Part shown: positions 5,097 through 45,300 of the stretch, one piece after another
Position numbering within the stretch: position 1 is the first letter of the stretch
How the letters are laid out: the number at the start of each line of letters is the position of its first letter
IMG/VR virus record: IMGVR_UViG_3300042731_004344
Location: 1-50,163 of that record
Length of the DNA: 50,163 nucleotides
Direction: 5' to 3' (one strand)
From: a virus
Position numbers and translations under genes: made by a program
Notes under the pieces: model-generated
What the model saw: the letters and a program-made list of their open reading frames with translations, nothing else
What the model was told of the DNA's origin: nothing
Databases searched by the model: none

Positions 5097-5871
5097 GCGG
5101 GACAACAGCTGGATCGTCATTCTGCTCGCCCTCGCGGTCGTCATCTTCGCGCTCGCCTCGTGCGATTGGTGGCCCCCGCCTGAGCTCGGCGCGAGGGAGC
5201 TTGGGGTCGAGGTGGTGCAACAGACATCCGACACGGCCTACGTCACGGCGAGCTGGAAACCACCCCTCAACGCCGCAGAGGGATGGGAGCTGTTCTACGA
5301 GTGGACGAACACGCGGATCAGCGGCGGCAACGCTTGCGAGCTGTCGGAGGCCACGACGCAGACGACCGTGAGCTTCCGCTGCACCAAGGGCGGGACGGCC
5401 GGACAGATGCGGTTCAGTGTCGTGCCCGTTCGAGTGGTGGACGGGGCGCAGCTCCGTGGGCCGTCCACTGAGGCCACATACACGGTGCCCGCTCGAGCAG
5501 CCGAACCGCCCGGGCCGGTGGACAGCCTCACGATCCAGGTGGCATGGCGTCGGGTCTGGACGGACCAGAACGACCCGCAACACGCTCACATCCAATACGA
5601 CCTTCCCCCGGCGACGTATCGGTACATCGACTACCCGGCCGGACTGACCGAGCGGTTCATGTACGAGGTCCTGCTCGACGGTGAGCCTACGGCCTACCTG
5701 TACGACGCGGACTACGGGGTGGTGGAGTGTCATCTCGTGGAGAACGGGGAGGTGTGCCCTGTGCGGCCCTTTCGACGAGAGCCGGGACACATGGCCCTGT
5801 TGGGACCACATCGGGGCGAACACGGACTGGCCGGAGTGCTACGACCCGACGGACCTAGCCAACTCGTGTGA
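5089..5871 (+). CDS. Fn3-like phage lipoprotein, zero-frame product (probably frameshifted)
   Basis: The start was set at ATG 5089, overlapping the holin end; the longer frame upstream lies inside the holin gene. It has a typical lipoprotein signal: basic N-terminus, hydrophobic core, then LASC with the lipidated cysteine at residue 25. Beta-sandwich domains of the fibronectin type III kind follow (SWKPPLNAAEGWELFYEW and a second from about residue 145). After about residue 227 the zero frame turns into an implausible Arg/His/Gly/Pro-rich tail and stops at 5871, while the natural-looking sequence continues in the +1 frame to 6103. The intact protein would be about 337 residues. Possible roles are superinfection exclusion at the envelope or a spanin-like lysis function; both are inference. 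Confidence 0.75.
   Translation: MSKRDNSWIVILLALAVVIFALASCDWWPPPELGARELGVEVVQQTSDTAYVTASWKPPLNAAEGWELFYEWTNTRISGGNACELSEATTQTTVSFRCTKGGTAGQMRFSVVPVRVVDGAQLRGPSTEATYTVPARAAEPPGPVDSLTIQVAWRRVWTDQNDPQHAHIQYDLPPATYRYIDYPAGLTERFMYEVLLDGEPTAYLYDADYGVVECHLVENGEVCPVRPFRREPGHMALLGPHRGEHGLAGVLRPDGPSQLV
5764..5776 (+). other. Candidate +1 frameshift site (CGG CCC TTT CGA)
   Basis: In the zero frame the codons read CGG CCC TTT CGA. In the +1 frame they read CCT TTC GAC GAG. A tRNA-Pro on CCC could re-pair with CCT after slipping one base forward, and TTT is an uncommon codon in this G/C-ending genome, so a slow A-site is plausible. CCC-T is a known kind of +1 slippery sequence, but no stop codon or obvious stimulatory structure lies beside it. 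A single-base insertion from sequencing or mutation explains the data equally well. Confidence 0.4.
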
Positions 5872-7337: not shown

Positions 7338-8405
7338 ATGACCCTGCAAGACACCGAGGCACGCCTCGCGCTCCTCACGGAGCGCCAAGCGGGTGTTGGC
7401 GGGTCGGACATCGGAGCGCTTGCGGGGCTGGACCCCTACCGCAACGCCTACGACATCTACCTCGAGAAAACGAGGCCCCCGACCGCCGACCAAGCACGGA
7501 ACATCCACATTCTCCGCGGCCTCATGCTAGAGGATCTCGCAGCCACCCTCTACAGCGAACGCAGCGGCCGGAAGGTTCGTCGGCTCAAGCAACGCGCACA
7601 TCCCGACTACCCGTGGGCGATGGTGAACGCCGACCGGCAGATTCTCCGCTCGGACGGCAACGGGGCGCACGCCAGCACCGGGGCCATGGAGATCAAGGCG
7701 CCGGCCACGGCGGGCTTTCAGCGGCTCCTCGACGAAGGGGCGCAGGTCCACCACTCCGTGCAGCTCCATTGGGCCATGTGGGTGCTCGGCTACGATTGGG
7801 GCGAGTTCGTTGCCATCAACCTCGAACACAGCGCCGGCCCCTTGGTTCACCACGCACTCGACCGCAACGACGACCTCATCGAGCAGGTTGCGGAGGCCGC
7901 GGATCGCTTCTGGAACGATCACGTCTTGGAGCGGATCCCGCCCACGCCCGACGTGTGGCCGTACTACCAGAACCCCGTCGAGGTGCCGGCGCACGATGCG
8001 GCCGTCATCAAGTACGGCGACGATCGGGATTGGGACGCGACCTACGAGTGGCTCCTGTCGGCGCACGCCGAGCTGGACACCGCCAAGAAGCAGTACGAGG
8101 CGGCCAAGGCGCAGGCCATGGAGTTTGCGGGCGACATGAAGATCAAGGTGACGGGCGACCAGGGCTCCGTGTCGGTGTATTGGGGTAAAGGCCGCACGTC
8201 TATTTCCGCATCGCTCGTTGAGGCGATTCGGCCCATCGACCCCGACAAGCTCCACCGCACACTCAAGGCGTGGGACGAGCTTCCCGTGGAGATCGACCAC
8301 GTTCTGCGGAGCTGCGCCCTCGACCTCGACAACATCACGACCGTAGGTGACGCCTACCAAGCCGTGCGCGTCACGCCGAAGAAGAAGAAAGGAGCGTCCG
8401 AATGA
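7338..8405 (+). CDS. YqaJ-family viral exonuclease (lambda Exo-like)
   Basis: A 355-residue 5'-3' double-strand DNA exonuclease of the YqaJ/lambda-exonuclease family, working with the annealase encoded next. Visible family marks are GGSDIGALAGLDPY near the N-terminus (residues 21-34), the acidic LED at 65-67, the metal-binding D99 in VNADRQI, the E118-x-K120 pair in GAMEIKAP, and the HSVQLHWAMWVLG helix with its conserved Gln (~142). These fit a PD-(D/E)XK nuclease core. The start is ATG 7338 with AAAGGAGG; the frame open further upstream is leader hairpin sequence. The ~100 C-terminal residues include a helical arm (ELDTAKKQYEAAKAQAMEFA). It is coupled to the annealase gene by ATGA at 8402-8405. 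Confidence 0.88.
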   Translation: MTLQDTEARLALLTERQAGVGGSDIGALAGLDPYRNAYDIYLEKTRPPTADQARNIHILRGLMLEDLAATLYSERSGRKVRRLKQRAHPDYPWAMVNADRQILRSDGNGAHASTGAMEIKAPATAGFQRLLDEGAQVHHSVQLHWAMWVLGYDWGEFVAINLEHSAGPLVHHALDRNDDLIEQVAEAADRFWNDHVLERIPPTPDVWPYYQNPVEVPAHDAAVIKYGDDRDWDATYEWLLSAHAELDTAKKQYEAAKAQAMEFAGDMKIKVTGDQGSVSVYWGKGRTSISASLVEAIRPIDPDKLHRTLKAWDELPVEIDHVLRSCALDLDNITTVGDAYQAVRVTPKKKKGASE

Positions 8406-9775
8406 CACAGACAGGTGCCGTAGCTGTCGTCGAGCACAAGCAGACGATCACCGAGATTGTGAACGAGGCCGTGGGTGGTGGCTACACCCCGGCCTACGTC
8501 GCGGCCATGAAGGAGCTGCTTCCGCCAGATTTCCACAATGCGCCGAGTCTCATCGCTCTCGGGATCCGCGCCCGCAAGAGCGGGCTCGACCCATTCACGG
8601 AAATCCACGCCTGGAAGAACGAGCGTGGAAAACTGCAGTTTCAGATCGCTCGCGACGGGTTCATCTACATCGCGTCGAACGACCCGAACGTGGAGTCGCT
8701 CGAGTTCCAGCACGTCTACGAGGGTGAGTCTTTCGAGTGGTCGAAGGGCGGCGACGGGCGCATCAGCATCACCCACCGGGGCGGGCTCGTGAAGGGGGAC
8801 CTCCTAGGCGCGTACTGCTGTGCCCACATGAACCACGGGTCGGACCACCTCGAGATGCGCGTGGTGTCCAACTACACGCATCTCATGAAGAAAGCCAACT
8901 GGCAGTATCTCCCCGAGATGCTCATCACGCGGGTCATCGGCGCGTGTGTGCGCCTCGTGTGCCCCGATCGGGCGGGAGGGCTCTACTCCGAGGCGGACAT
9001 GGAGCTGGCCGAGGTGGGAGAGCGCGAGAGATTCATCAACTCCACGGTCGAGGAGGCCACGACCATGAAGGTCGATGTCGCCGTGGCGGAGTTGCGCGAG
9101 AAGAAAACGCAGGAGGAGGATCCGCCGACGGTCGAGGCCGAGATCCACAATCAATACGCCTGCCCCGAGTGCGATCGTTGGTTCGACACACAACAGGGCC
9201 TCGCGGGCCACATGCGGTCCCACAAGAAGCACGAATCCGCACAACCGATGGCGGAGACGGAGGAGGACGCCGTGGACCCTACGCCTGCGGCTACGGACGA
9301 CACTCCCACGGATGCGTCTCCCGGGAAGGACACGGCCGGACCTGTCGCTGACACGAGCGGTGATTCGCACCCCGCCGTGGTGCCGCACGATAGCGGCCTC
9401 GAGATCCCCAAGGGCTACCAGGTGTTCGTCGATCGGGGTGGGCAGTATGTGGTGCAGTATACGGACCCGGCCACATCCGAGGTGACAGAAATCGGCCGGT
9501 ATCCCACGGCCGACGATGCTGCCCTGGCCGCGCAGAATCACGAGTATCAGCTCACGCAGAGCGTTCCGTCCGAGGTGAAGCTCGCGGACATCTACGCCTG
9601 GATGCGACTCAACAGAGTCCCGGCCACGGCCGTCGCAGACATCATCAACGACACCATCTACGAGGATGAGTTTGAGCGGTTCCGCGAGGAGGGAGCCGAG
9701 AAAATCAGCTCGTTCAACCTCGACCCGGATGCGCGTCGTACCCTGTTTGAGATCGTAAAGCAGCGCCACGGATGA
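8402..9775 (+). CDS. RecT/Bet-family single-strand annealing protein with C2H2 zinc finger
   Basis: The first ~210 residues match the RecT/Bet annealase pattern (LGIRARKSGLDPFTEIHAW, then RDGFIYIAS, then WQYLPEMLITRVIGACVRL), the partner of the upstream exonuclease in strand-annealing recombination. The unusual part follows. At residues 254-274 a textbook C2H2 zinc finger occurs: C254-x2-C257-x12-H270-x3-H274, with the conserved Phe and Leu in place (CPECDRWFDTQQGLAGH). An acidic Pro/Thr-rich linker and a C-terminal helical domain (about 390-457) come next. At 457 residues it is far longer than lambda Bet (261) or RecT (269). The finger may add DNA binding or partner recruitment; that is inference. 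Confidence 0.85.
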   Translation: MTQTGAVAVVEHKQTITEIVNEAVGGGYTPAYVAAMKELLPPDFHNAPSLIALGIRARKSGLDPFTEIHAWKNERGKLQFQIARDGFIYIASNDPNVESLEFQHVYEGESFEWSKGGDGRISITHRGGLVKGDLLGAYCCAHMNHGSDHLEMRVVSNYTHLMKKANWQYLPEMLITRVIGACVRLVCPDRAGGLYSEADMELAEVGERERFINSTVEEATTMKVDVAVAELREKKTQEEDPPTVEAEIHNQYACPECDRWFDTQQGLAGHMRSHKKHESAQPMAETEEDAVDPTPAATDDTPTDASPGKDTAGPVADTSGDSHPAVVPHDSGLEIPKGYQVFVDRGGQYVVQYTDPATSEVTEIGRYPTADDAALAAQNHEYQLTQSVPSEVKLADIYAWMRLNRVPATAVADIINDTIYEDEFERFREEGAEKISSFNLDPDARRTLFEIVKQRHG

Positions 9776-9779
9776 GCCG

Positions 9780-10664
9780 GTGGCCCGGTTCATCGCCGTA
9801 TCGGTGGAGCTGTTTGAGGACCACCCACTAGCCGAGCGTCCGTACTGCACGGCGTTTGCGTGGCTCGACCTCATACGCAGAGCCAAGTGGAAGGACGGAG
9901 CCGGCCTCGAGAGGGGCCAGCTCCGCGCCTCCGTTCGCTTCCTGGCGGAAGCGTGGGGATGGAGCGTCAAGCGAACGCACACCTTTCTCGTTCAGCTCGA
10001 AGCGGACGAACGCATCGTCTGGACGCGACCCCGCGCAGGGAAACGCGAACCGGGAACGCTAAGCATCCTTGAGTATGAGAGTTATCAGTCACGCGATGCG
10101 TTGAATGGAAACGCGAGTGTGGAGAAACGCGAACGACCACGCGAAGGTAACGCGAAACGTAACGGTCCAAGTGATTACGAGGACAGGCAGATGTACGAAA
10201 CCGAGAAACGCGAAACGAACGCGAATGGAAACGCGAACGACAACAAATCTGTACCAGTACCAGTAGTTACTACCTCATCTCTCTCTCCCTCCCTACGGTC
10301 GGTCGAGAGAGATTCGGGCGAGGTTGTCCAAGGCACGCTGATCGACGTTCCCGTTGAGCCCACCCCGACGCTCGTGGCTACGGCCATGACGGCTCGGTGG
10401 ATCGAGGAGCAGGTCACGCGACCACCCGAGAGCGAGATCAAGAAGCAGGCACGGACCTTCTCATCCATCGCCCGCCGCGAGTCGGTGCAACACATCGCTC
10501 AGGCGTGGGAAGGGATCGGCACGCTGTACCCGTTCAGTGAGGGGCGACCCTGGGATGCGTTCGACCTTCGCAAGCTGTTCGGAAAGGCGCTGCAGGCCGG
10601 CGCTCTCGAGCTGTCCGACGGCGACCCCGCAGAGCTGGCACGTTGGCTACGGGAGTTCGGATGA
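9780..10664 (+). CDS. Replication initiator, lambda-O-like, containing the candidate origin
   Basis: A 294-residue protein starting at GTG 9780. The N-terminal ~100 residues look like a winged-helix replisome-organiser domain (AWLDLIRRAKWKDG, then GQLRASVRFLAEAWGWSVKR). The centre (about 85-180) is low-complexity and rich in Arg, Asn, Glu and Ser. Its DNA holds many copies of AAACGCGAA read in two different codon phases, which argues for a cis-acting DNA element and not a peptide repeat. The C-terminal ~100 residues form a second helical domain. In lambda, gene O likewise contains the iteron origin in its middle and its product binds those iterons and recruits a helicase loader. The same arrangement is inferred here. 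Confidence 0.7.
   Translation: MARFIAVSVELFEDHPLAERPYCTAFAWLDLIRRAKWKDGAGLERGQLRASVRFLAEAWGWSVKRTHTFLVQLEADERIVWTRPRAGKREPGTLSILEYESYQSRDALNGNASVEKRERPREGNAKRNGPSDYEDRQMYETEKRETNANGNANDNKSVPVPVVTTSSLSPSLRSVERDSGEVVQGTLIDVPVEPTPTLVATAMTARWIEEQVTRPPESEIKKQARTFSSIARRESVQHIAQAWEGIGTLYPFSEGRPWDAFDLRKLFGKALQAGALELSDGDPAELARWLREFG
10040..10310. other. Candidate replication origin: ACGCGA iterons plus AT-rich/pyrimidine tract
   Basis: The hexamer ACGCGA occurs nine times in one orientation, beginning at 10043, 10091, 10111, 10127, 10139, 10150, 10208, 10219 and 10231. Most lie within a longer GAAACGCGAA consensus. Several neighbours are 11-12 bases apart, about one helical turn. The copies fall in two different codon phases of the surrounding gene. 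Immediately downstream the composition changes to a less GC-rich stretch with CTACCTCATCTCTCTCTCCC. Iterons followed by an easily melted region inside the initiator gene match the architecture of lambdoid origins. No other cluster of this kind was seen in the window. Confidence 0.65.
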
Positions 10665-11972: not shown

Positions 11973-12409
11973 TGAAAGAAAAGCAGGTCGAGCACCACAT
12001 CGTCCAGGCGATCCGGCAGCTCGGCGGTGAGGTGGACAGTTTCAGCCAGCCGCGCAACACGATGCAGACGCCGGGGATCCCCGACCTACGGGCGGTCTTT
12101 CCTGCCGCTCGGACTGCGGTGTGGCTCGAGGTGAAGCAGGGCAAGAACAAGCCGACGCCACATCAGATCGCGTGGCTCACCCGCGAGTGCCTCATGGGGT
12201 CGCCGGCAACGGTGGTCTACGGCGTCAACGACCTCGTTTGGGCCTTGGTGCAGCTCGGGGTGATCGACGACGATAGCCCTCGCCCCAACCCGCATGACGA
12301 GACGGTGAAGTTCATCGACCTGTGGAGGTTTGGTGGGGTGGATGCTGGCCTTGGTGCGCCGGACACTGGTGCCTGGGCCGACGAGCTCGCGGAGGACGTC
12401 GGCCTCTGA
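11972..12409 (+). CDS. VRR-NUC domain nuclease
   Basis: A 145-residue protein of the VRR-NUC family (PD-(D/E)XK fold). An early helix (KQVEHHIVQAIRQLGG) leads to the core TPGIPDLRAVF (Asp38), AVWLEVKQGKNKPTPHQ (Glu53-Val-Lys55 with the trailing Gln65) and a C-terminal WAL helix. These are the expected catalytic elements. ATG 11972 was preferred to the GTG three bases earlier because it gives the TGATG overlap used at the neighbouring junctions. The C-terminal ~40 residues beyond the domain are acidic. In phages such stand-alone domains are thought to act on branched or broken DNA, which fits the recombination module. Confidence 0.85.
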   Translation: MKEKQVEHHIVQAIRQLGGEVDSFSQPRNTMQTPGIPDLRAVFPAARTAVWLEVKQGKNKPTPHQIAWLTRECLMGSPATVVYGVNDLVWALVQLGVIDDDSPRPNPHDETVKFIDLWRFGGVDAGLGAPDTGAWADELAEDVGL

Positions 12410-12666
12410 TGGGCACGCTCTCGCGCCGTCTGCGAATCGTGTACGACTGCGAGTGCTACGTGTCGTATCCTCTGCAGGTGCGGCAAACGTGGAGCTGCCT
12501 GTTCTGTGGTGGGAAGTTGGGGAGTGTGGCGTTCGACAGGCAGGTGGCGCGTTGGGTGGTGGCGGGTGGCCTGCGCCCCCCACCCCCACCCCCTGCGCCC
12601 AAGGTCAACAGGCGTTCAAAGCGACGGCGAGAATCAGCATCACGACGGCCGCGCTCCACAGTATGA
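12409..12666 (+). CDS. Small Cys-rich basic protein with polyproline (85 aa)
   Basis: It starts at ATG 12409 in a TGATG overlap with the nuclease gene. The 85-residue product has CECY and CLFC motifs (likely one zinc site), then a Pro-rich run (LRPPPPPPAPK) and an Arg/Ser-rich tail. The polyproline is encoded by C-tracts that form a G-quadruplex motif on the other strand. It is the last gene of the rightward unit before convergence with the leftward operon. Family not recognised; the C-terminal third could be low-constraint sequence. Confidence 0.5.
   Translation: MGTLSRRLRIVYDCECYVSYPLQVRQTWSCLFCGGKLGSVAFDRQVARWVVAGGLRPPPPPPAPKVNRRSKRRRESASRRPRSTV
12576..12600 (-). other. G-quadruplex motif on the minus strand
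   Basis: On the minus strand the tracts read G3-CGCA-G5-T-G5-T-G6, a canonical four-tract quadruplex motif with very short loops. It lies ~85 bases beyond the stop of the last leftward gene, so leftward transcripts reaching here would carry an RNA quadruplex in their 3' region. It could help stop or protect the transcript where the two units converge. Structure formation is inference. Confidence 0.5.
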
Positions 12667-12677
12667 CGCCCTCCGGT

Positions 12678-12692
12678 GCGCGCCTCACGCGC
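12678..12692. terminator. Weak hairpin at the convergent gene junction
   Basis: GCGCG (12678-12682) and CGCGC (12688-12692) can pair around a five-base loop in the 18-base gap between the rightward gene ending at 12666 and the leftward gene ending at 12685, extending slightly into the latter. There is no T-run on either side. It is a possible bidirectional stop signal, but short. Confidence 0.25.
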
Positions 12693-12855
12693 CCTCTCCG
12701 TGTCTCTCCATCCAGGTGCCGAGGTACTCCCCCAACACCTTGCGGATGAGCTGCGAGACGCTGATGTGGTGATCCGCCGCGACATCCTCGAGGAGCTTCC
12801 ATTGGACCCTCGAGAAGTAGACCGTCCGCTTCACCATGTTCTTTCCAATCGTCAC
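12685..12855 (-). CDS. Ribbon-helix-helix (CopG/Arc-type) DNA-binding protein
   Basis: A 56-residue protein. The start was set at GTG 12855 because it makes a four-base GTGA overlap with the preceding stop and has GGAAGGAG at good spacing; ATG 12837 is an alternative. The fold signature is a short strand (KRTVYFSRVQW) followed by two helices (KLLEDVAADHHISVSQLIRK, then VLGEYL), as in ribbon-helix-helix repressors that bind DNA as dimers. It is the last gene of the leftward operon. A role as a phage regulator is likely. A possible target is the inverted repeat at 17532-17567, but that link is speculative. Confidence 0.65.
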   Translation of the reverse strand: MTIGKNMVKRTVYFSRVQWKLLEDVAADHHISVSQLIRKVLGEYLGTWMERHGEGA

Positions 12856-12998
12856 TTGCGCGTCTCCTTCCAGTCGGCCCACAGTTCGATGATTTCGTTC
12901 CACAGCTTTGCCCTCTTGTCGTCATCCGCCTCGTTGCACCACCGTTGAAGCAGCTCGTCATGCTCCTTCTCAAACTGCTTCCATGCACTCTCGCTCAT
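12852..12998 (-). CDS. Small acidic helical protein (48 aa)
   Basis: It starts at ATG 12998 with GGAGG seven bases upstream and a TGATG overlap with the preceding gene; the much longer open frame upstream is a shadow. The 48 residues are Trp/Glu/Lys-rich and almost entirely helical (WKQFEKEHDELLQRW, AKLWNEIIELWADWKETR). No family recognised. Compact charged helical proteins of this kind are common in early phage regions and often bind host proteins; that is only a possibility here. Confidence 0.55.
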   Translation of the reverse strand: MSESAWKQFEKEHDELLQRWCNEADDDKRAKLWNEIIELWADWKETRK

Positions 12999-13312
12999 CA
13001 GTCCTCCAAGGGTCGGGTTGCGAGTCCGAGCTGCCGAGCCGCCGCGAGTACGGCCGCCCGCGCCTCCTCCGTCTTGGGCACTATGTAAATCCAGTGGTGG
13101 TCGGTGATCGCGTGCTTCACCTCGACCACGACCTCTCCCGTCTCCTGGTGTCGGTAGACCTCCCGTGTCCCTTCGGCCTCCGATTGGAGCTTCAGGTCGG
13201 TCTTGGTGAACAGGTCGTTCGCCTCCTCGGAACGGATGATCGCCAGCCAAGCGGGGAGTCCGTTCACCGTCTCCCCACCGTGCCTCATGGCGCAGAATCG
13301 CAGGTAGCTCAA
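12998..13312 (-). CDS. Hypothetical protein with TTG start (104 aa)
   Basis: The start is inferred at TTG 13312. This gives a TTGA overlap with the previous stop and an AAGGAG eight bases upstream, whereas the internal ATG at 13288 has no ribosome-binding site. The 104-residue product has a beta-strand pair in its middle (TREVYRHQETGEVVVEVKHA) ending in HHWIYIVP and a C-terminal helix (EEARAAVLAAARQLG). No family recognised. Confidence 0.55.
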   Translation of the reverse strand: MSYLRFCAMRHGGETVNGLPAWLAIIRSEEANDLFTKTDLKLQSEAEGTREVYRHQETGEVVVEVKHAITDHHWIYIVPKTEEARAAVLAAARQLGLATRPLED

Positions 13313-13863
13313 GGTCTGCACTCCTTGCAGTCGAGTCGTGGTCGGCCCACCCCGTTGAAGGGCACTTCGCCGCCGCACTTGCGGCAGGTCGGCTTGGGTT
13401 TTCCCGGGCCGTACTTGTTGTACTTCTCCTTCATGTAGGCGAGAGTCCGATCCCGCCGCTTCGCGTTCGCCCGCCTGCAGGTGGCGAGGTATCTCGCCCG
13501 TGCCTCGGGGTCCGTCTTGATCTTCTCCATCTCCTTTCGCTTGTGCTCACGCATGTACTCGGGGTGTGCGTCCCGCCACTCCTTCTTCTTGGCGAGCTTC
13601 GCCCTTCTGCGTGCGGGTGACATCGCGGCGTAGCGTTGCCGGGCGCGGAGCTGCCGCCACGCCCTGCGGCACCGGGCGCATCGGTCGGTCTTGCCCACCA
13701 CGCCATCGACCCGCGCCCCGCAATCGCGGCACTCGCCCCGCCGCTTCTTGCACCGCGCACCGCTGCACCTGGTCCGTGTCTCGACGAGGCCGCCACGCCC
13801 GTCCGTGTCGAACGTGACGTAGACGGCCCCGCCGCACCGGCACCTCTCGACGTAGCGGTTCAT
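13309..13863 (-). CDS. Multi-zinc-ribbon protein with charged helical linker (184 aa)
   Basis: 184 residues with metal-binding pairs at both ends. The N-terminal half has CRCGG, CSGARC, CRDCG and CARCRR (about residues 8-70). The C-terminal end has TCRKCGGEVPF and DCKECRP. The middle (75-150) is a highly basic helix with repeated Arg/Lys (AKLAKKKEWRDAHPEYMREH). The arrangement resembles phage zinc-ribbon proteins related to HNH/intron-endonuclease accessory domains, but no HNH catalytic pattern is visible. Nucleic-acid binding is likely. It starts at ATG 13863 in an ATGA overlap. Confidence 0.65.
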   Translation of the reverse strand: MNRYVERCRCGGAVYVTFDTDGRGGLVETRTRCSGARCKKRRGECRDCGARVDGVVGKTDRCARCRRAWRQLRARQRYAAMSPARRRAKLAKKKEWRDAHPEYMREHKRKEMEKIKTDPEARARYLATCRRANAKRRDRTLAYMKEKYNKYGPGKPKPTCRKCGGEVPFNGVGRPRLDCKECRP

Positions 13864-14198
13864 TCGGCTTTGAGACTGAAATCAGCGCCGCACTGGCGAC
13901 AGCGGAACCAATGCAGGATGCCGAGCGCCCCAAGGGCCACGCCCACGCCGCCGCACATCGGGCACACGGGGTTCGGCATACAGTCGGGACACAGGTAGGT
14001 GGTGGTCGAGCCGTCCGGCCGGTCCAGCCGCAGCATCGTCACGCACTCCGTGCTTCCGCACTCGTCGCACTCATCTTCCGGCTCCTCCATCTCCGGGCAG
14101 TCGAACGAGGCGTGATAGCCGAAGCAGCGGTCGCAGAACGGCGGCTCCTCCGGTGGCTCGAGCTTCTGATGGTAGTAGCCCTCCGGTCGTTCAGTCAT
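13860..14198 (-). CDS. Cys-rich multi-zinc-finger protein (112 aa)
   Basis: 112 acidic residues containing CDRCFGYHASFDC, CDECGSTEC, CPDCMPNPVCPMCGG and CRQCG, about five cysteine pairs, enough for two or three zinc sites. A short hydrophobic stretch (GVALGALGILHWF) separates the last two. It starts at ATG 14198 overlapping the previous stop. No catalytic motif. Part of the run of zinc-ribbon proteins in this leftward operon. Confidence 0.65.
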   Translation of the reverse strand: MTERPEGYYHQKLEPPEEPPFCDRCFGYHASFDCPEMEEPEDECDECGSTECVTMLRLDRPDGSTTTYLCPDCMPNPVCPMCGGVGVALGALGILHWFRCRQCGADFSLKAE

Positions 14199-14482
14199 AG
14201 TCCCAAGTCTCCCTGTTCAGCGTACAGCAGCGGGTCCACGTCCCCCGCCGCGCAGTCGTGCTTGTAGTGGCCCTCGCGGGCCGCGAGTAGGTCGCGTTCG
14301 TCGTGCCCCCAGGGCGGGAGCCCTTGGAACGCGCCGCTCTTGACATGGCCCGAGGGTGCCCGCGCTACGCACGGGCTGCCGGCCTTGGCGCGGCACACGG
14401 GACACGCGACCTCCAAGACGGGATCGCGTGCCCACTCGTGGCCGCACCGTTGACAGTGGACAGGGCCTTTCAGTGCAGCCAT
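14195..14482 (-). CDS. Phage zinc-binding domain protein (95 aa)
   Basis: The start was chosen at ATG 14482, inside the end of the preceding gene (13-base overlap); the longer frame upstream is a shadow. The 95 residues have HCQRCGHEW then CPVCRAKAGSPC followed by GHVKSGAFQG. The spacing CPxC-x4-G-x-PC plus downstream His matches the phage zinc-binding family found in many phages, sometimes as an appended domain of DNA enzymes. A nucleic-acid-binding accessory role is likely; no enzymatic motif is present. Confidence 0.65.
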   Translation of the reverse strand: MAALKGPVHCQRCGHEWARDPVLEVACPVCRAKAGSPCVARAPSGHVKSGAFQGLPPWGHDERDLLAAREGHYKHDCAAGDVDPLLYAEQGDLGL

Positions 14483-14784
14483 GAGAGCCTCAACAGGAAC
14501 CGCCGCCACCACGACAGCTCGACCACCTTCCACTCGCCGTGGAACCAATCCGTCACAGCGTCGATGTTCTCGCCCCATATCTGGACGCCATACTCCCACT
14601 CCTCGCCGCCCTTGAAGGGTCCGTCCATCTGCACCCACGCCTCTGCGTCCTTGTGCTTCGGCGTGACCATGACCTTGACGAGCGTTCCCGTCCGTCCTGC
14701 CGGGAGCATGAAGCAGGGGTAGCGATCCACCCCGTGTGGGCCTGTGATGACCCGTGTGCCTACCTTCGGCATACGTTGACGCAC
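14470..14784 (-). CDS. Small beta-rich hypothetical protein (104 aa)
   Basis: It starts at GTG 14784, six bases after AGGAGG on the minus strand; the ATG at 14772 would be too far from it. The 104 residues form a small SH3-like pattern (GRTGTLVKVMVTPKHKDAEAW, VQMDGPF) with a Trp-rich C-terminus (WWRRFLLRLSWLH). No family recognised. The upstream gene's TAG is ten bases away. Confidence 0.55.
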   Translation of the reverse strand: MRQRMPKVGTRVITGPHGVDRYPCFMLPAGRTGTLVKVMVTPKHKDAEAWVQMDGPFKGGEEWEYGVQIWGENIDAVTDWFHGEWKVVELSWWRRFLLRLSWLH

Positions 14785-14794
14785 GCTGCACCTC

Positions 14795-15667
14795 CTAGAA
14801 AAACGTGGCTTGGCCCGTCTCCTCGTCCACCGTCTCGCGGTAGATGTCGGGCACCTTGAACACTCGCCTCGCGAGCGGAACGATCTTCCTGTGATTCAGC
14901 TTCGTCTGCTCCTCGCCGTACTCACCGACACGGATCGCGAAGTGCTTGGAGTAGCCGTGGCCCTGTTGCCCCGTGCCGTTGAAGCGCACGTACAGCCACT
15001 CGCCCTGCCACGGCACGTAGCAGGACGACACCGTGGATAACTCGCGCCCACAGTCCTCGTAGAACTCGCCCATCGTGCGGCCTAGCTTGCGCCGGATCGC
15101 CCACCGCACCATCCCGCCCCGCACGTTCGTCATCGTGAGCAGGACGATCCGCTCGTTGAGGTCGCGAGGGAGCTTCTCCTCGGGCACCGTGAGGGTGCGG
15201 TGGTGAATGGGTGGACGGTACTGCCCGTCCTCGCCCTCTCGGTCCTCCGTCTCGGTCGTGTACCACCACGAATCGGAATAGAACGGCCCGCCCTGCCCCC
15301 GGCAGACCGGGAGCCCGTCCACGACGAGACGCCGGTTGAACGCGATCCACCCCGGCTTGTCGTTCGCTTCCAGCCAGTCGAGGCCCGCTTGATAGGCCAC
15401 GCTCCCGCCGTAGTGCATACCGGGTGTCTCGCCCTGTCCTGTCGCGCCTTGGAGCCAGTGTTCAAACCACTCATCCCGGTGGTAGTCGTAGTCCCACGGC
15501 TCATCGCCCTCGTACTTGGGTCCGTCCCACTTCGCCGCCCTCGCGTTCCACGCCGAGCGAGGCCACCCCGGCGCGAACTCTTTGTAGTCGTACCGGCGTT
15601 CTCTCGCCCTGCTCTCGCGAAGGTGTGCGGCCCACGAATCGCGCACCGCTTGGTCGAGGGCGCTCAC
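14795..15667 (-). CDS. Hypothetical protein, Trp/Tyr/Asp-rich (290 aa)
   Basis: The largest gene of the leftward operon. It starts at GTG 15667 in a GTGA overlap with the previous stop. The 290 residues include a very aromatic acidic N-terminal third (YEGDEPWDYDYHRDEWFEHW), a central region with RRLVVDGLPVCRGQGGPFYS, and a C-terminal half with strands and helices (NERIVLLTMTNVRGGMVRWA, then CYVPWQGEWLYVRFNGTG). No membrane segment, no nucleotide-binding loop and no nuclease motif were found. Codon use is as for its neighbours. Function unknown; an early host-takeover role would suit the location. Confidence 0.6.
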   Translation of the reverse strand: MSALDQAVRDSWAAHLRESRARERRYDYKEFAPGWPRSAWNARAAKWDGPKYEGDEPWDYDYHRDEWFEHWLQGATGQGETPGMHYGGSVAYQAGLDWLEANDKPGWIAFNRRLVVDGLPVCRGQGGPFYSDSWWYTTETEDREGEDGQYRPPIHHRTLTVPEEKLPRDLNERIVLLTMTNVRGGMVRWAIRRKLGRTMGEFYEDCGRELSTVSSCYVPWQGEWLYVRFNGTGQQGHGYSKHFAIRVGEYGEEQTKLNHRKIVPLARRVFKVPDIYRETVDEETGQATFF

Positions 15668-15870
15668 GGTTCCGCCGTGTACTCAAGAGACGCGCCGTCC
15701 GGCCTCCCTTCGGCCTCCGTCCGCACGTACCACAGCGGCAGGCCGGGGTTGGGTTGGAGCCACACGAAGCAGGGCACACCCTCCCGGCGTGCCCTGTCCT
15801 CGGCTTGGTAGATCGCGGCGTGGCGGGTGCAGGCCTGTGCGGCCTCACTCGCCCAGTCAATCCGCCTCAT
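15664..15870 (-). CDS. Small hypothetical protein (68 aa)
   Basis: 68 residues starting at ATG 15870, overlapping the preceding gene by 14 bases and coupled at its stop (GTGA) to the next. It has a helical N-terminus (WASEAAQACTRHAAIYQAED) and a beta-like C-terminus (VPCFVWLQPNPGLPLWYVRT). No family recognised. Confidence 0.55.
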   Translation of the reverse strand: MRRIDWASEAAQACTRHAAIYQAEDRARREGVPCFVWLQPNPGLPLWYVRTEAEGRPDGASLEYTAEP

Positions 15871-16288
15871 CCGTCCCCCTTCCGGCGCGGCCCGCCAGCT
15901 GCTCGACGAGCGCCCACATCACGCCCGTGTCCGTCTCCTCGTTGCGGGCGCACTCCTCGCCGTACTCATCGAACCGCACAGCGGCGAGATCGAGCCCCGT
16001 CAGGATGCCCCGCACGAACGCCTCGAACTCTCCGCGCTTGAACGCTTGGCTAGTGGCTACGTGCGACATCCCGCCGCCCTCGTTCACCATCTCCCCCAAG
16101 CGGTAGCGCGTCCAACCGTCGCCGGGGCTGTGCGCGTCGATGAACAGGTGGCCGACCTCGGCCCGCAGGTGCGGCGCGAACGGGTCCTCGTCCGTCACCG
16201 CGACCTGTCGCCACGGCTTGAGCGGTCGCCCGGTCCTTGCGTTGATGCTTGCGACCCATCGCGCTAGGGTCGTGCTTGGCAGTGCCAT
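15857..16288 (-). CDS. Hypothetical acidic protein (143 aa)
   Basis: The start was chosen at ATG 16288 with a strong minus-strand GAAGGAGGG; the open frame continues upstream only as a shadow through a structured leader. The 143 residues include a Trp-containing segment (ARWVASINARTGRPLKPWRQ), VGHLFIDAHSPGDGWTRYRL, and a helical acidic C-terminus. It is the one gene of this operon with a sizeable leader (83 bases, containing competing hairpins), so it may be separately controlled. No family recognised. Confidence 0.6.
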   Translation of the reverse strand: MALPSTTLARWVASINARTGRPLKPWRQVAVTDEDPFAPHLRAEVGHLFIDAHSPGDGWTRYRLGEMVNEGGGMSHVATSQAFKRGEFEAFVRGILTGLDLAAVRFDEYGEECARNEETDTGVMWALVEQLAGRAGRGTDEAD

Positions 16289-16308
16289 CGTCCCTCCTTC
16301 CGAGGGGT

Positions 16309-16359
16309 GGGCCGGGAGCGGCCCGTCTGCGGACGCCCCGTCTCGCGCTCCGCTCCCGG
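16309..16359 (-). promoter_or_regulatory. Competing hairpins in the leader before the 16288 gene (attenuator-like)
   Basis: A perfect 10-base inverted repeat, CCGGGAGCGG at 16312-16321 and CCGCTCCCGG at 16350-16359, can form a long-loop hairpin. The 16312-16321 arm is also part of a second perfect hairpin, GGGCCG-GGAG-CGGCCC (16309-16324). Only one can form at a time. In the leftward transcript the long hairpin's first arm is made first, and the short hairpin ends about nine bases before the ribosome-binding site of the next gene. This is the geometry of an attenuator or translation switch; no T-run is present. Confidence 0.45.
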
Positions 16360-16371
16360 TGGGGTGGGTGG

Positions 16372-16893
16372 TCAAGGGGCGCAGTCGATCTCGGCACCGC
16401 CTGGGACGCCCGCTTGCGTCCACGTTATGCGGTGCCGCCAAGTCATCGGGACGAGGCCCGAGCCATCGCACCGGGTGCAGGTGTCGGCGTCCTCGCTGAA
16501 CGAGGAGCCGTAGCCGTTGCACCACTCGCACTCCATCAGCCCGACCCGCTCGGGGTTCGCGCCCCGCCACACCTCGCGGATCGCTTCGGGCTCGTTGCCC
16601 ACGAACAGCCGCCCACAACCGCCGCAGGTGTAGCCACCCACAAACACGTTGCACGGGACCTGTTCCCGATCAGCGCACTCGGGGCAGAACCCCGGCTCGT
16701 AGGCCGGGGAGCGTTCGTGAACGGTGGCGCGGCAGAGGGCGTTATCGCTGTCGAGGGTGCGCCCGATGGTGGCACAGTAGCGGGTGCAGTAGCACTCGCC
16801 GCCCGTGATGTAGAGGCAGTCCCACGCCTCAATCTTCGTCCCGCAGGAAGCGCACGGTATGCGCGGCCACGGGTTCTTCGTGAGGTACATCAT
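16372..16893 (-). CDS. Cys-rich protein with DnaJ-type CxxCxGxG motifs (173 aa)
   Basis: 173 residues with at least eight cysteine pairs. These include CASCG, CYCTRYC, FCPECAD, TCGGCGRL and, near the C-terminus, CEWCNGYGSSFSEDADTCTR followed by CDGSG. That last pair of CxxCxGxG-like motifs is the zinc-binding pattern of DnaJ-type chaperone domains, here without a J domain. It starts at ATG 16893 by ATGA overlap with the upstream stop; a second ATG follows. Probably a multi-zinc protein that binds protein or nucleic acid; specific role unknown. Confidence 0.65.
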   Translation of the reverse strand: MMYLTKNPWPRIPCASCGTKIEAWDCLYITGGECYCTRYCATIGRTLDSDNALCRATVHERSPAYEPGFCPECADREQVPCNVFVGGYTCGGCGRLFVGNEPEAIREVWRGANPERVGLMECEWCNGYGSSFSEDADTCTRCDGSGLVPMTWRHRITWTQAGVPGGAEIDCAP

Positions 16894-17009
16894 CGCTTGA
16901 ACTCCGAGAGCAGGGTGAGAAGGAGAGCCGTCACGACGAGCGCGGCCACGATCAGCAGGGCGCCCGTCAGGACGCCCCGCGCTACGATGTCAAGTGTGGT
17001 GGGGTTCAC
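16890..17009 (-). CDS. Single-pass small membrane protein (39 aa), GTG start
   Basis: It starts at GTG 17009, overlapping the RadC-like gene's stop (GTGA). The longer open frame upstream is a shadow of that gene. 39 residues consisting of a short N-terminus (NPTTLDIVARG) and a strongly hydrophobic helix (VLTGALLIVAALVVTALLLT) with a basic end (SEFKR). Function unknown; the couplings on both sides support it. Confidence 0.6.
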   Translation of the reverse strand: MNPTTLDIVARGVLTGALLIVAALVVTALLLTLLSEFKR

Positions 17010-39375: not shown

Positions 39376-42300
39376 ATGGCGAACGGGCACGCGAGGGTAC
39401 TGCCACAGCAGGTGCCGCAAGGGAAGGACGACCCGCTAAAGCGGAAACTCGACCTACTCCTGCCCCCCGCCTACGATTCGCTGGACGCACTCATCGAGTC
39501 GAAACTCGCCCCGAGAGCTCCCGGCACTCCGCGCCCAGGGCAGGCGTACCCGAGCATCCCCAACCACTTCACTCGCTACCTCGAGGCGCCGTCGCGTCCG
39601 CCGATCCCGCCCCCGGTGGTCGAGGAGACGAAACCCGTCTCGCCGTACCTGTCACCCGACGCGCCCGAGTTCCGTCCCGGCACGCTTGACCAGGTGCAGA
39701 AGCAGATGGAGCAGGAGTGGGCAATCGACTCCCTGCGGAGCCAGCGCCCCGAGTGGGAGCGGTACATCGAAAAGCCGGGCCCGCCCCCGCTATCCGGCGC
39801 TCCGCCGTGGATGCGGATACAGCAGGACGAGTATCAGCGCAGCCCGTTCGACGTGGCGCGGGCCGGGATGCCGCAGGATGCAGCTCGCGTTCGGCCCATC
39901 ACACCTCGCGACATCATCGCCACGCTACCGGAGCCGCAGCAGATCGAAGCGATGGAGCAGCTCCGCCAGTTCGAGGAGTCCGGCGAACGGGACCCTATGA
40001 CGTGGCCCGAACGACTGCGGGCCACCAAAGGAATGACGCTCGCCACGCTGGCCGGCGCCTACGAGGGCGTCCTCAACGTCGGAGAGCTGATCGGCCGGAC
40101 GATGGGATCCAACGTGCCCGGCGTACAGCGCGGGACGGCCGTGCAGGTGGACCCCGACTACCTCGCGGCGCAGGCGCAGCAGATGGCCGAGAGCGTGGAG
40201 GAGTTCCGCGAAAAGGCATTTCCGGCAGAGGGGGCCGTCGGCTTTTTCGACGTGCTCGACGACCCGCGCCTGTTTCTCGATTGGGCGTTCCCGACAATGG
40301 CGCAGGGCCTCACCTCGAGCGGACTCATTCTAGGGGCGCTCGCGGCCGGTGGGCCAGCGGGGCTCGGCATGGCGTTCGCGTTCAACTACCCCGAGGCCGT
40401 GGGCGAGCTCGAGGCGGCAGGGGTGCCCCGAGAGGATGCCCTCAAGTGGGGCGCAGCTCTCAACCTGCCGATTGCGTTTTGGGACACGGTACTCCCAGGC
40501 ATGATCTTGCAGCAGGTCAAGACCAAGGGGATGTCGGAGGCCGCGGGGCAGCTTCTAATGGAGCGTGCTCGACGCGAGATGCGAAAAGGGGGTGTGCGCC
40601 GCACCGTGGAGGCGATGGGCCGTGCGGGGCTCGTGGAGGCCGGTACAGAGGGCTTGCTGCAGGAGGGCACCCTCATGTTCGGCGGCGACCTGGCGCGACA
40701 GCTCACGGGCGAGGAGCAGTACACGTTCGAGGAGTACATTCGCAGGATCGTCGAGGCGGGCGCGGCCGGGTTCCTGCCGGGTGCGATCATGGGGGGTGGC
40801 TCGAGCATCCGGCAGGACATCCCGCAGAGGAGTCTCGGCAACTGGACGCTCCGAGAGGCACGGGCGGGCGAGCTTGAGGTAAAGGGCGCGACCGGGGAGT
40901 TCGGAGAGAAGGGCGTCGAGCTGGCGAACCAGATGCGCGAGGAGCGCATCGACAAGGAGCTGGACGAGGCCCCGCAGACCGAGCGCGGCATCGACATCGG
41001 ACCACCCCAGGGGCAGGAGGACCGGCGCACCTACTCCACCAAGCAAGAGGAGCTGCGCGACCAGATCCTTTCCGGCACGGCCGGGTCGAAGCACAACCGG
41101 CTCATGGATTGGGTACAGACCGTCCGCGACCGCTATCCGCCCGACGCCCCCGGCGACCCGGCTTTCCGCTACGCGAACACGCTTGCTGGACAAGTGCTGG
41201 ACAACCGCACGGACGAGGAGATGATCCGTCCGTCGCAGTTCATGCAGGCGTTCCCCGGAAAGTTCGACACGCGACTCGAGGAGATTTCCCGCCTCGACGA
41301 AAGGCAGCAGGCGCCCGACACCGGGACGCAGCCGGCCACAGCGATTCCGCTCGACCCCGCCACGGACGCCCGCATGGAGGTCGAGGACCTTCAGCTGATG
41401 GAAGGGGCGCAGTACAAAAAGTACGGCAAGCAGGCGGCGGCCAAAGGGCTCGAGGGGGCGAAGGAGTGGAACGACGACCTGGCCGGAATCCTGCTCGTGT
41501 GGCGGGGACCTCCCGGCGAACAGTACGACAAGCCCGTGGTCATCAACGGCCACAATCGGTACGCCGCTGCCGTGCGGCTCAAAAGCGAGGGCAAGACGGT
41601 TCCCTCGCTCCGCGTCCGGTTCATCGAGGCCGAGACGCTCGGTGACGCCCGAGCCATAGGCGCACTCACGAACATCGCAGAGGGCCGAGGGACGGTGTGG
41701 GACGCGGCCGAGTTCTTCCGCGAGGGCGGGTACACGATCGACGACCTGCAGAAGAAGGGCCTCGCGCTCGGTGAGGAGAAGGTCAACCGTGGCTATGCCC
41801 TGTCCAAGCTGATCCCCGACATCTACAAGCTCGCGTTCGGTGGCAGCTCGGGGATGAACGAGGAGAAAGGCGTCATCATCGGGCAGGCGGACCTCAGTGA
41901 TGCGGAGCAACGCGGGCTCCTCAAGCACTTCCGCAAGAAGGGAACCCCGGCAAAGGACAAGCTCTCCAACCTCATCGCACTCGCCCAGGGCGAGGCGCAG
42001 GTGGTCGTCCAGGGTGGGCTGTTCGGGGAGGAGCATTTCGCGGAGTCGCTGCTCGAGGAGAAAGCGGACATCAAAACCGCTGTGGACAAGATGATCCGCG
42101 CCGATGCCGCGCTTTCGCGCAAGCTGCTGTCGGCCGCAGCAGCGGCTCGGGAAAAGGGCGCGGGGGAGATCAACGAGCTGCGCGCCGCAGAGATCGGACA
42201 GGAGGCGGCGGATCTTGAGCAGGCGTTCTACGTGGCGCAGCGCGAGGATCCGGTCATCCGCGACTACCTCGACAGCGCGGCCAGAATCGTAAAGGGCCAC

Positions 42301-45300
42301 AAAACCAAGAAGGAAAAGAACAATGCCATCCGACAACAAGCCAAGGAGCTTGTCAAACTCCTCGCTGAGTCCGAAAGCACGGCGGAAATCGGTAGAGCAG
42401 GTGGAGAAGCTGATCGAGGACGGGTGGCTCCAGAGGGAGAAGGACGGGTTTCCGAGTCTGAAGGAGAAACTGCCGTTCAAGAGGCGCAAGCGACTTACGC
42501 CCCCGAGGTAGTCACGCCGGAGAACGTAGAGATCGGGGAGGAGTGGGTCGTCGCGAAGAACCCGGCCTACGCCCACCGCGCTCTTGCTCCGGTGCGCGAG
42601 TCGTGGGTCGTGAAGCGGGTGAGTACCGGGGAGATCGTACAGGTCGGCAAGTACGGCGACATGGTGACGCTCGCGAGAGAGATGAAAGAGGGCCGTGGCC
42701 TCAAGCAGCTCGGTGAGGGTCCCGGCGAGGTCGTCGAGGCCGAGACGCCAGAGGTCATTCAGACCGTCATCGAGATCCGCAACGAGAAGCACGTACAGGA
42801 CGAGATCAAGCGAACGCGGATGCGCCTGCGGCAGTTCGAGAAGAAGATCAAGGACCGGGGCAGCTCGATCTTCCCAAACGAGATCGAGGGCGCGGCCGAC
42901 CTGGTGCAGCAGCGGGACGACCTGCGCGCCTACCTCGACCACCTGCACTCGATCCAGAACGAGTACCTCGCCGCCAGGCGCGAGGCGGCCGGCGAGCCAC
43001 CCATGATCCTCGTGGAGAAGCGGTACGACCCGGAGACGGGAAGGACCCACTACGCCAGCGCCCCCTCCCCGACGAAGCGGCGGGAGATGGTCGAGCAGGT
43101 GCTACAGGAGCGGGCCAAGCGGGCGGAAGAAAAGCGCAAGGAGGAGATGAAACCCGTCCGGCGCGCGAAGGTCGTCTACAGCGCACCGACCCCGTTCTAC
43201 AACCTGTCGATGAACCTCGACGAGTGGCTCGCTCGCCTCAAAGCCGTGCTGCCTCGCACCAAGGACGGAAAGAAAATCCGGCGAGTGGGCGCGGTGTTCC
43301 CAACAGGGGCGACCGGAGAGGAGCTGATTGACGAGGTGACGGGCCTCATGACGCACCTTGCACAGAACCCGATCCTCGTGGAGCAGGCCAACTCTGAGCA
43401 GGTCGAAAGACTGCGAGACTACCTGTCGCACCCGTGGTTCGGCGGCGAGACAAAGCCGGGGTCGGGCACCAAGCCCGTCGGTGAGAAAAAGGCGTACTAC
43501 CCCAACCGGCAGAAGGACAGCCGTGGCGAGCCGATCGACATGAGCCGACCGCTCACCCGCGACACCGAGCACAAGCAGCAGCCCGCGTACTATTACGAGA
43601 ACCCCATCACCGGGGCTCGGACGTATTTCTTCAAGGCGCAGTACCGCATAGACGCTGACAGGTCGGACCCGCTCACCGATGCGCTCAAGACGCTCAAGCG
43701 GTCGATCGAGAATCGCGGCACGGAGCTGTTCCTCGTGAAAGAGGGCCGCAAGGCGTTCGAGGGCACCACGAAGATTCCGCCAGCCGAGGACACCGGGGAC
43801 GTGGTGGAGCTGTCCCCCGACCAGGGCGACATGTTCGAGGAGGAGGAGGGCGAGGACGTCCGGCTCGGAGCGGCGCAGCAGGAGTTGCAGCTCGACGAGA
43901 ACAGCACGCAGGCGATCCTCGCACGACAGCGGCAGATCATCTCCAACTACTACGGCCCGTGGAAAGCGGGAGAGGCCAGCGAGCGACAGCTCACACACCT
44001 CTACACCGCGATGAAAATGATCGTCGCGTACAACGCCGACAATCAGTCCGCGTGGGGGTTCACGCTCGCGGATCTCAACAAGCTGGACGCCCACTTCGGC
44101 ACGATGCGGTGGCAGGGGGTGAAGGAACCGAAGGTCACACCCATCGACGGACTTGCCCAGGCCGATGCGTTCGATTGGCTCGGAGGCGGGGGCGTTGGTC
44201 GCATCGACTACATGGCGTCTGAGACGATGCCTGGCGCCGGCCAGCGCAACGACGACCCCGCGCTCACCCGCAAGTACGAGGAGATGCTCGAGGAGCGCGG
44301 ACTCGCGTGGATGCGCCGCAAGGAAAAGATCCCGAGCACCCGCGATGCGATCCGGCAGGTGGGGCGGGCGCTCATGACGCCGGTATCGACCGGGCGCACC
44401 AGCATGGGGCGTGCGTTCGGGCAGTTCCTCACGCACTTCCGCTCCATTCGTACCAAGTGGGCCTACGACATGGAGACGGTCGGCCACGAGGTCGGCCACG
44501 CTCTCATGCAGCTCGTGTGGCGGGAGCAGGCGTACACCGACAGCGGAAAGCTCTCGAACCGGATCCTGCAGCCGTGGGACTACGAGCTCGCCGTGTTTGG
44601 AGAGGACCTCGCCAACTGGCAGGAGGCGGAGGACCTGCCGCAGCGCCTCGAGTGGTTCGCGGAGTTCGTCCGCAGGTGGATCAGCACCCCGACGGCAATC
44701 GTGGAGAAGAAAAACGGCACCAAGGCCGCGGTGCAGGATCTCGACATCGCCAACTTCATCGAGGAGACGCTCAAGGAGAGCGAGCCGGGTGTCCTCGAGG
44801 CCATTGACTACGCCCGGTTCGTCTACAAGCACTGGCGCAATCAGACGCCGGAAGCGCGGATGCTGTCGCAGTTCATGCTCCACCGCGAGGTGCAGAAGGA
44901 CCGCGCCTGGGCGTGGGTCATGGTCCCCCCGCTCGTTCGCGTAAAGCGTGCGTGGATCGACCTTCACGTTCCGTTCGACACGGTGGTAAAGACGTACAAC
45001 CCCGGCCTCAACATCACCGACCGCAGCATCCCGCTGGACGAGAACCCCGCCATGCTCATTCGGCTGCTCGGGGGAGCCGCGGCGGCGGGTGACGCCGCGT
45101 GGATGTACGGGATGGAGGACGCGGAGACAGGACTGCGAACGAGCGAGGGGCCAGAGCAGATCCTCATGCGGGCGTTCGAGCAGATGCAGCAGATGGGGTA
45201 CGCGAACCAGGAGGCGTTCCATCTGCTGACGGCGTTCGGCGCATCGCTGCGGACCCGAGAGCGCGGCAACGTCAACCTCGAGAGAGCGAAGCAATACGCC

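Follow-up and report, generated by a model that had tools for sequence, protein, structure and literature searches.

The locus described here raises the question of why a viral gene should carry ten copies of one six-base word, all in the same orientation, and whether they mark the place where the genome begins to replicate. The window, by which we mean the whole 50,163-base virus record, carries a 141-bp terminal repeat with one mismatch, consistent with the 50,022-bp circle assumed in the initial annotation, and encodes a terminase, a portal, a major head protein and tail proteins, with RecE- and RecT-like genes upstream of the gene of interest. The RecT-like annealing protein (8402-9775) has an extra C2H2-type zinc-finger match at residues 251-277 (E 2.4e-6), and a single 2,859-aa reading frame at 39376-47955 has a portal-family PHROG match in mid-frame (residues 637-985) and tail-type unknowns close to its end. 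That annotation had proposed an iteron-type origin within an initiator gene, and this is the best-supported reading, given an array beyond chance, a layout common to a family and covariation between repeat and protein: very probably the region is an origin of theta-type replication lying in the gene of its own initiator, which would bind and open it. Its features are as follows.

9780..10664, plus strand: initiator gene, 294 aa, GTG start; DnaD-like/replication initiation family (PHROG 35955, 2514, 186).
9849..10088, plus strand: codons of the predicted winged-helix DNA-binding domain, residues 24-103 (AlphaFold pLDDT about 90 over most of it; family alignment).
9963..9986, plus strand: codons of the putative recognition-helix segment SVKRTHTF, residues 62-69 (family alignment and covariation).
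10023..10028, plus strand: iteron 1, ACGCGA, in wing codons.
10043..10048, plus strand: iteron 2, within GGAAACGCGAA, in wing codons; kept in the relative L006.
10091..10096, plus strand: iteron 3, an ACGCGA copy at the end of the winged-helix domain.
10111..10116, plus strand: iteron 4, an ACGCGA copy.
10127..10132, plus strand: iteron 5, an ACGCGA copy.
10139..10144, plus strand: iteron 6, an ACGCGA copy.
10150..10155, plus strand: iteron 7, an ACGCGA copy.
10208..10213, plus strand: iteron 8, an ACGCGA copy.
10219..10224, plus strand: iteron 9, an ACGCGA copy.
10231..10236, plus strand: iteron 10, an ACGCGA copy.
10107..10352, plus strand: codons of the linker, residues 110-191, predicted to be disordered (pLDDT about 40-48), hosting most of the array and the AT-rich stretch.
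10213..10282, no strand assigned: AT-rich stretch, candidate unwinding element, at and after the array end, where the family as a whole has an AT peak.
10278..10312, no strand assigned: imperfect inverted repeat TCTCTC...GAGAGA, a weak counterpart of the hairpin that follows the array in relatives.
10353..10661, plus strand: codons of the C-terminal helical region (AlphaFold, lower confidence), common to L006.

ACGCGA occurs ten times on the plus strand at 10023-10236, inside the gene at 9780-10664, and not at all on the minus strand between 8,675 and 12,168. Nine same-strand copies had been reported, in two codon phases; exactly nine do lie at 10043-10236, in phases 1 and 2 as claimed, and the tenth, at 10023, is in phase 0, so that together they use all three. 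The accompanying description of most copies as GAAACGCGAA was overstated, as it fits four of the nine exactly and six within one mismatch, although all four exact occurrences of this 10-mer in the window are within the initiator gene. Over the whole window the hexamer is not enriched (68 observed vs 62.7 expected), so the signal is local, and unrelated 6-mers elsewhere in the window reach at most five non-overlapping copies per 220 bp. Ten copies are observed; the best 6-mer never exceeded 8 (mean 3.5) when synonymous codons of the gene were shuffled 5,000 times, or 5 in 5,000 codon permutations. The successive spacings are 20, 48, 20, 16, 12, 11, 58, 11 and 12 nt; steps of 11 or 12 nt are confined to two blocks, and this spacing, with its intervals of 16, 20, 48 and 58 nt, is less regular than that of the family described below, which counts against the origin reading.

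What kind of protein does the gene encode? Its PHROG matches are to 35955, 2514 and 186, named as DnaD-like helicase loader, and to 17768, named as replication initiation; the PHROG E-values for the family, 1.9e-8 and 8.1e-8, are independent of the seed of our family profile; the profile itself gives 88.5 bits, a score to be read with the fact that it was seeded with the window's own domain. By these matches the gene belongs to a large family of winged-helix phage initiators (PHROG 35955/2514). There is no Pfam match at E<=1, no RepA_N domain (PF06970) was found by Pfam, and a search of the PDB by sequence, with a family sub-alignment as query, gave no match. The best fold matches, which are weak (E 0.004 and up), are to the N-terminal domains of plasmid-type initiators and to a Rep-DNA complex. 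Iterons 4-10 and the AT-rich stretch are placed in the linker codons and, since many different peptides are accommodated in this disordered segment, this part of the gene would be free to serve as origin DNA.

The arrangement extends well beyond the window. The survey covered 387 sequences, reduced to 197 non-redundant genes, and a gene was scored as having an array when one 6-mer occurred five or more times within 220 bp. By this definition an array is present in 140 of the 197 non-redundant relatives, vs 0 of 196 neighbouring control ORFs, and 114 relatives' arrays beat all 60 synonymous shuffles; an exact-word array of at least 5 copies is missing in 57 of the 197. The nearest relative found, L006, which is 56% identical over the N-terminal domain, keeps three copies of GGAAACGCGA, one of them in the matching wing codons (GKR[ED]PG), with a linker peptide unlike that of the window protein, which bears out the suggestion that copies would persist as the peptide varies. 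More distant relatives (31-38% identity) have arrays at the corresponding position but built of other words; across the family it is the geometry of the array that persists while word and peptide change.

That geometry is well defined. Neighbouring copies follow one another in most cases at 11 nt (302 steps) or 12 nt (160), and wider intervals fall around 22-24 and 66-68; copies typically lie at -73, -61, -49, +17, +28, +40, +51 and +62 relative to the domain end, and those set apart by a gap are found at constant positions, one of them about 66 nt upstream. Most arrays have one copy within folded wing codons, 106 of the 140 use three codon phases, and copies on the coding strand outnumber those on the opposite strand by 748 to 6. 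The 6-7-mer is conserved and the spacer bases mostly are not, with most of the 11-12-nt unit alike in some members. Mixed phases, coding-strand bias and spacing together indicate selection on the DNA, in one orientation and at near-helical spacing. Named phages with arrays include Staphylococcus phage PVL (orf46, ACATCA, eight copies), Bacillus phage poppyseed (CACAGA, seven), Staphylococcus phage phi879 (AAGACA, seven) and Sulfitobacter phage pCB2047-A (GGGACA, eight). Among six cultured phages checked together, four have no array of at least 5 copies at 11-nt steps; Vibrio phages 1.276.O and 1.167.O, Pseudoalteromonas phage SL25 and Anoxybacillus phage A403 are without a clear exact-word array, so that arrays are either not universal or in these four too degenerate for an exact 6-mer test.

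If the words are binding sites, they might be expected to change with the residues that read them. Over all members the signals of clade and helix are mixed (columns 29, 59, 60 and 61 are high too), and the analysis was therefore redone within the best-sampled clade (86 members), with relatedness handled by regression and permutation rather than by a phylogenetic model. The best predictors of the word among all domain columns are then 70 (z 17.8), 92, 91, 59 (z 13.8), 74 (z 12.6) and 71 (z 6.8). The recognition helix contains columns 70, 71 and 74, which correspond to residues 63, 64 and 67 of the window protein, whereas 92 and 91 are encoded by the repeats themselves. In every member but one the array does not include the codons of the helix, so the covariation of helix and word is not an artefact of the reading frame. 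Column 59, just before the recognition helix, could reflect a second contact or an effect of relatedness. Examples of helix and word are SKS..D with CGGGACA, H[RK]S..E with CGAGACA, TPA..Q with CGATACA, SEA..R with CGACGCA and SHS..R with CGGCACA, the word being frequently of the form CG-NNN-CA.

Outside the main clade (39 members) the signal is weaker and the helix columns do not lead: column 70 has z 3.3 and column 74 is not listed. Among distant members the word is shared by helix neighbours at 0.65 vs 0.52 for neighbours by the rest of the domain (p 1.5e-7). A blind test on a small scale had one clear success, L407, whose identity to the members of the set does not exceed 53% and which has ten copies of the word predicted from its helix; L408, which has an extra helix residue and degenerate copies only, failed for the exact word, and the remainder were near-identical to known members or were without helix neighbours. 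The helix type of the window, SVK..HT, is rare, and nothing close to it occurs in the covariation set; the helix rule therefore does not predict the window's own word. Covariation is the best evidence here that the words would be bound by the protein encoded around them. We lean towards a general formulation, in which binding sites are written into the reading frame throughout the family, with an 11/12-nt geometry that is fixed, and the word is specified by a few residues of the recognition helix.

An origin of this type would also need a place to open. The best 60-mers at 10213-10282 have an AT content of 0.567 vs a mean of 0.357, a value equalled at 42298 and exceeded nowhere in the window; the stretch is not, as we had also considered, the single AT maximum of the window. 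The less GC-rich, pyrimidine-biased stretch that was said to follow the array is indeed AT-rich, but the pyrimidine bias is confined to 10262-10297 (75%) and does not hold at the AT peak (38%). In the family, AT content is up by ~20 points in the 40 nt past the last copy and then returns to background (122 members), and at +10 it is above the gene's own mean in 98% of the 122. Directly after the array, GTACCAGTACCAGTA is common to the window (10250-10275) and L400 (about 5370-5390), the words of which differ.

Further downstream, 42 of 124 members have a perfect hairpin with arms of at least 6 at +10 to +90 after the array; the commonest position is +40 to +60, a bin with 27 hairpins where most others have 1-7, and TAAC, TAAA, TGAC and TAGC are frequent loops. 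Such a hairpin behind the AT patch, with a loop resembling TAAC, may be an additional component of the origin. The inverted repeat of the window at 10278-10312 is no better than in shuffled sequence (z about 0). In L173, L011, L124 and L041, perfect hairpins with short T-A-A-C-like loops lie within coding sequence 40-60 nt after the array, and that of Salmonella phage L is at about 3765-3788 of L426; the post-array hairpins have no obvious T-run and might conceivably be single-strand initiation sites.

Taken as an origin, the region would work as follows. Several initiator copies would sit on the ACGCGA array through their winged-helix domains, all facing the same way and, within blocks, 11-12 nt or about one helical turn apart; the resulting complex would open the AT-rich stretch at the array end, and the C-terminal helical region, presumed to act in helicase or primase recruitment, would bring in the host replicative helicase or primase. 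The GC-skew switch that had been anticipated near 10.1-10.3 kb is absent: skew is positive across 8-12 kb and, once detrended, reaches its minimum at 16.7 kb. By the rule set in the initial annotation this counts against an origin here; we give it little weight, because GC skew in phages often follows gene direction. Also on the opposing side are the 57 relatives and the four cultured phages without such an array, and a helix type in the window from which its word is not predicted. GC and AT skew both change sign over about 12,000-17,000 (detrended GC-skew minimum at 16,698), which may follow a change of gene strand.

It is worth asking whether the repeats could have another cause altogether. 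That they arose as a by-product of a linker peptide that is repetitive and of low complexity is suggested by the predicted disorder of the linker, but a peptide-level repeat is ruled out by the mixture of phases, with copies in all three, and by the synonymous shuffles, which like the codon shuffles do not reproduce the array; a copy in the folded wing codons of most arrays argues the same way, and we consider the probability of this explanation negligible. Only slightly less improbable is an origin by neutral tandem duplication or slippage. It would account for those members in which most of the 11-12-nt unit is similar, but not for spacers that are mostly unconserved while the 6-7-mer is kept, for gapped copies at fixed places, such as the one about 66 nt upstream, or for a word that covaries with helix residues encoded outside the array in all but one member.

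An operator deserves more consideration, though we judge it unlikely. The protein would then bind the repeats in order to repress or time its own transcription, or would bind the mRNA, and replication would start elsewhere. The array does sit in the gene of the presumed binding protein, covariation with the helix speaks to recognition and not to purpose, and the coding-strand orientation would suit RNA binding as well. However, the array is deep within the gene and not at a promoter, a fixed AT-rich stretch after the array is typical of origins, the family is annotated as replication, and the related layouts that have experimental support, those of lambda O (PMC7466680), pSK41 Rep (PMC5703833) and 80alpha ORF20 (PMC5499656), are origins.

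The intragenic-origin layout is already known. The family-wide geometry, the covariation of helix and word and the hairpin were not found described in the open papers searched; subscription papers may hold parts of them. Most phage origins are unmapped, and here a DNA-binding domain and its target can be read together in one gene. If the general formulation is true, the origins and compatibility groups of many uncultured phages would be predictable from protein sequence, which may give origin, word and compatibility group alike, and the more than 100 natural helix-word pairs would indicate how DNA-binding specificity shifts while peptide and binding site share bases. Cultured members, among them Salmonella phage L, Sulfitobacter phage pCB2047-A and Bacillus phage poppyseed, make the family testable.

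How, then, does the family relate to systems already characterized? In 80alpha (ORF20) and SPP1 (gene 38) the replisome organiser has an origin embedded in its gene, and in 80alpha a deletion is not complemented in trans (PMC5499656). We considered 80alpha ORF20 as a family member, but this is unsupported (profile E 0.24), and the gene has no 11-nt array. The pSK41 Rep protein, of the RepA_N type, uses its N-terminal winged helix to bind Rep boxes located centrally in the gene that encodes it; its origin-encoded linker is dispensable in trans and its C-terminal domain binds DnaG (PMC5703833). The best fold matches of the window protein are to N-terminal domain and Rep-DNA structures of this kind, albeit weak ones (E 0.004), yet it has no RepA_N Pfam match, and RepA_N boxes are longer and semi-palindromic (PMC7145576), in contrast to the short words of the window's family.

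Lambda O likewise has iterons inside the initiator gene, followed by an AT-rich region, and they are bound through the N-terminal part of the initiator (PMC7466680; NC_001416). The window has the same order of repeats within the gene and AT-rich DNA after them, and the description of its gene as lambda-O-like holds for this layout but not for the protein family: lambda O matches PF04492 (E 5.7e-36), whereas the window protein has no Pfam match at E<=1, and lambda O as a member of the family is unsupported, its match to the family profile (E 0.04) not being significant. The iterons differ as well, with four of 18 bp at 20-24-nt steps in lambda and words of 6-7 bp at 11-12 nt in the family. By the comparisons run, the likeness to the lambda origin is most likely one of layout and function and not of descent from lambda O. 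In Salmonella phage L, 11-bp repeats in gene 18 have been proposed as the origin, which is annotated there as putative (PMC8022706; MW013502); the word was given, with no family-wide rule (PMC8022706). Phage L gp18 matches the window's family profile (E 2.4e-15), which places it in the winged-helix family. Its array, like most of that in the window, is in linker codons. There TGTCCA stands six times, one copy every 11 nt and the phases rotating; next come a stretch of A and T only and a hairpin whose arms are 10 bp long and whose loop is TAAC. Relative to the window, phage L has another word, more regular spacing and a clear hairpin.
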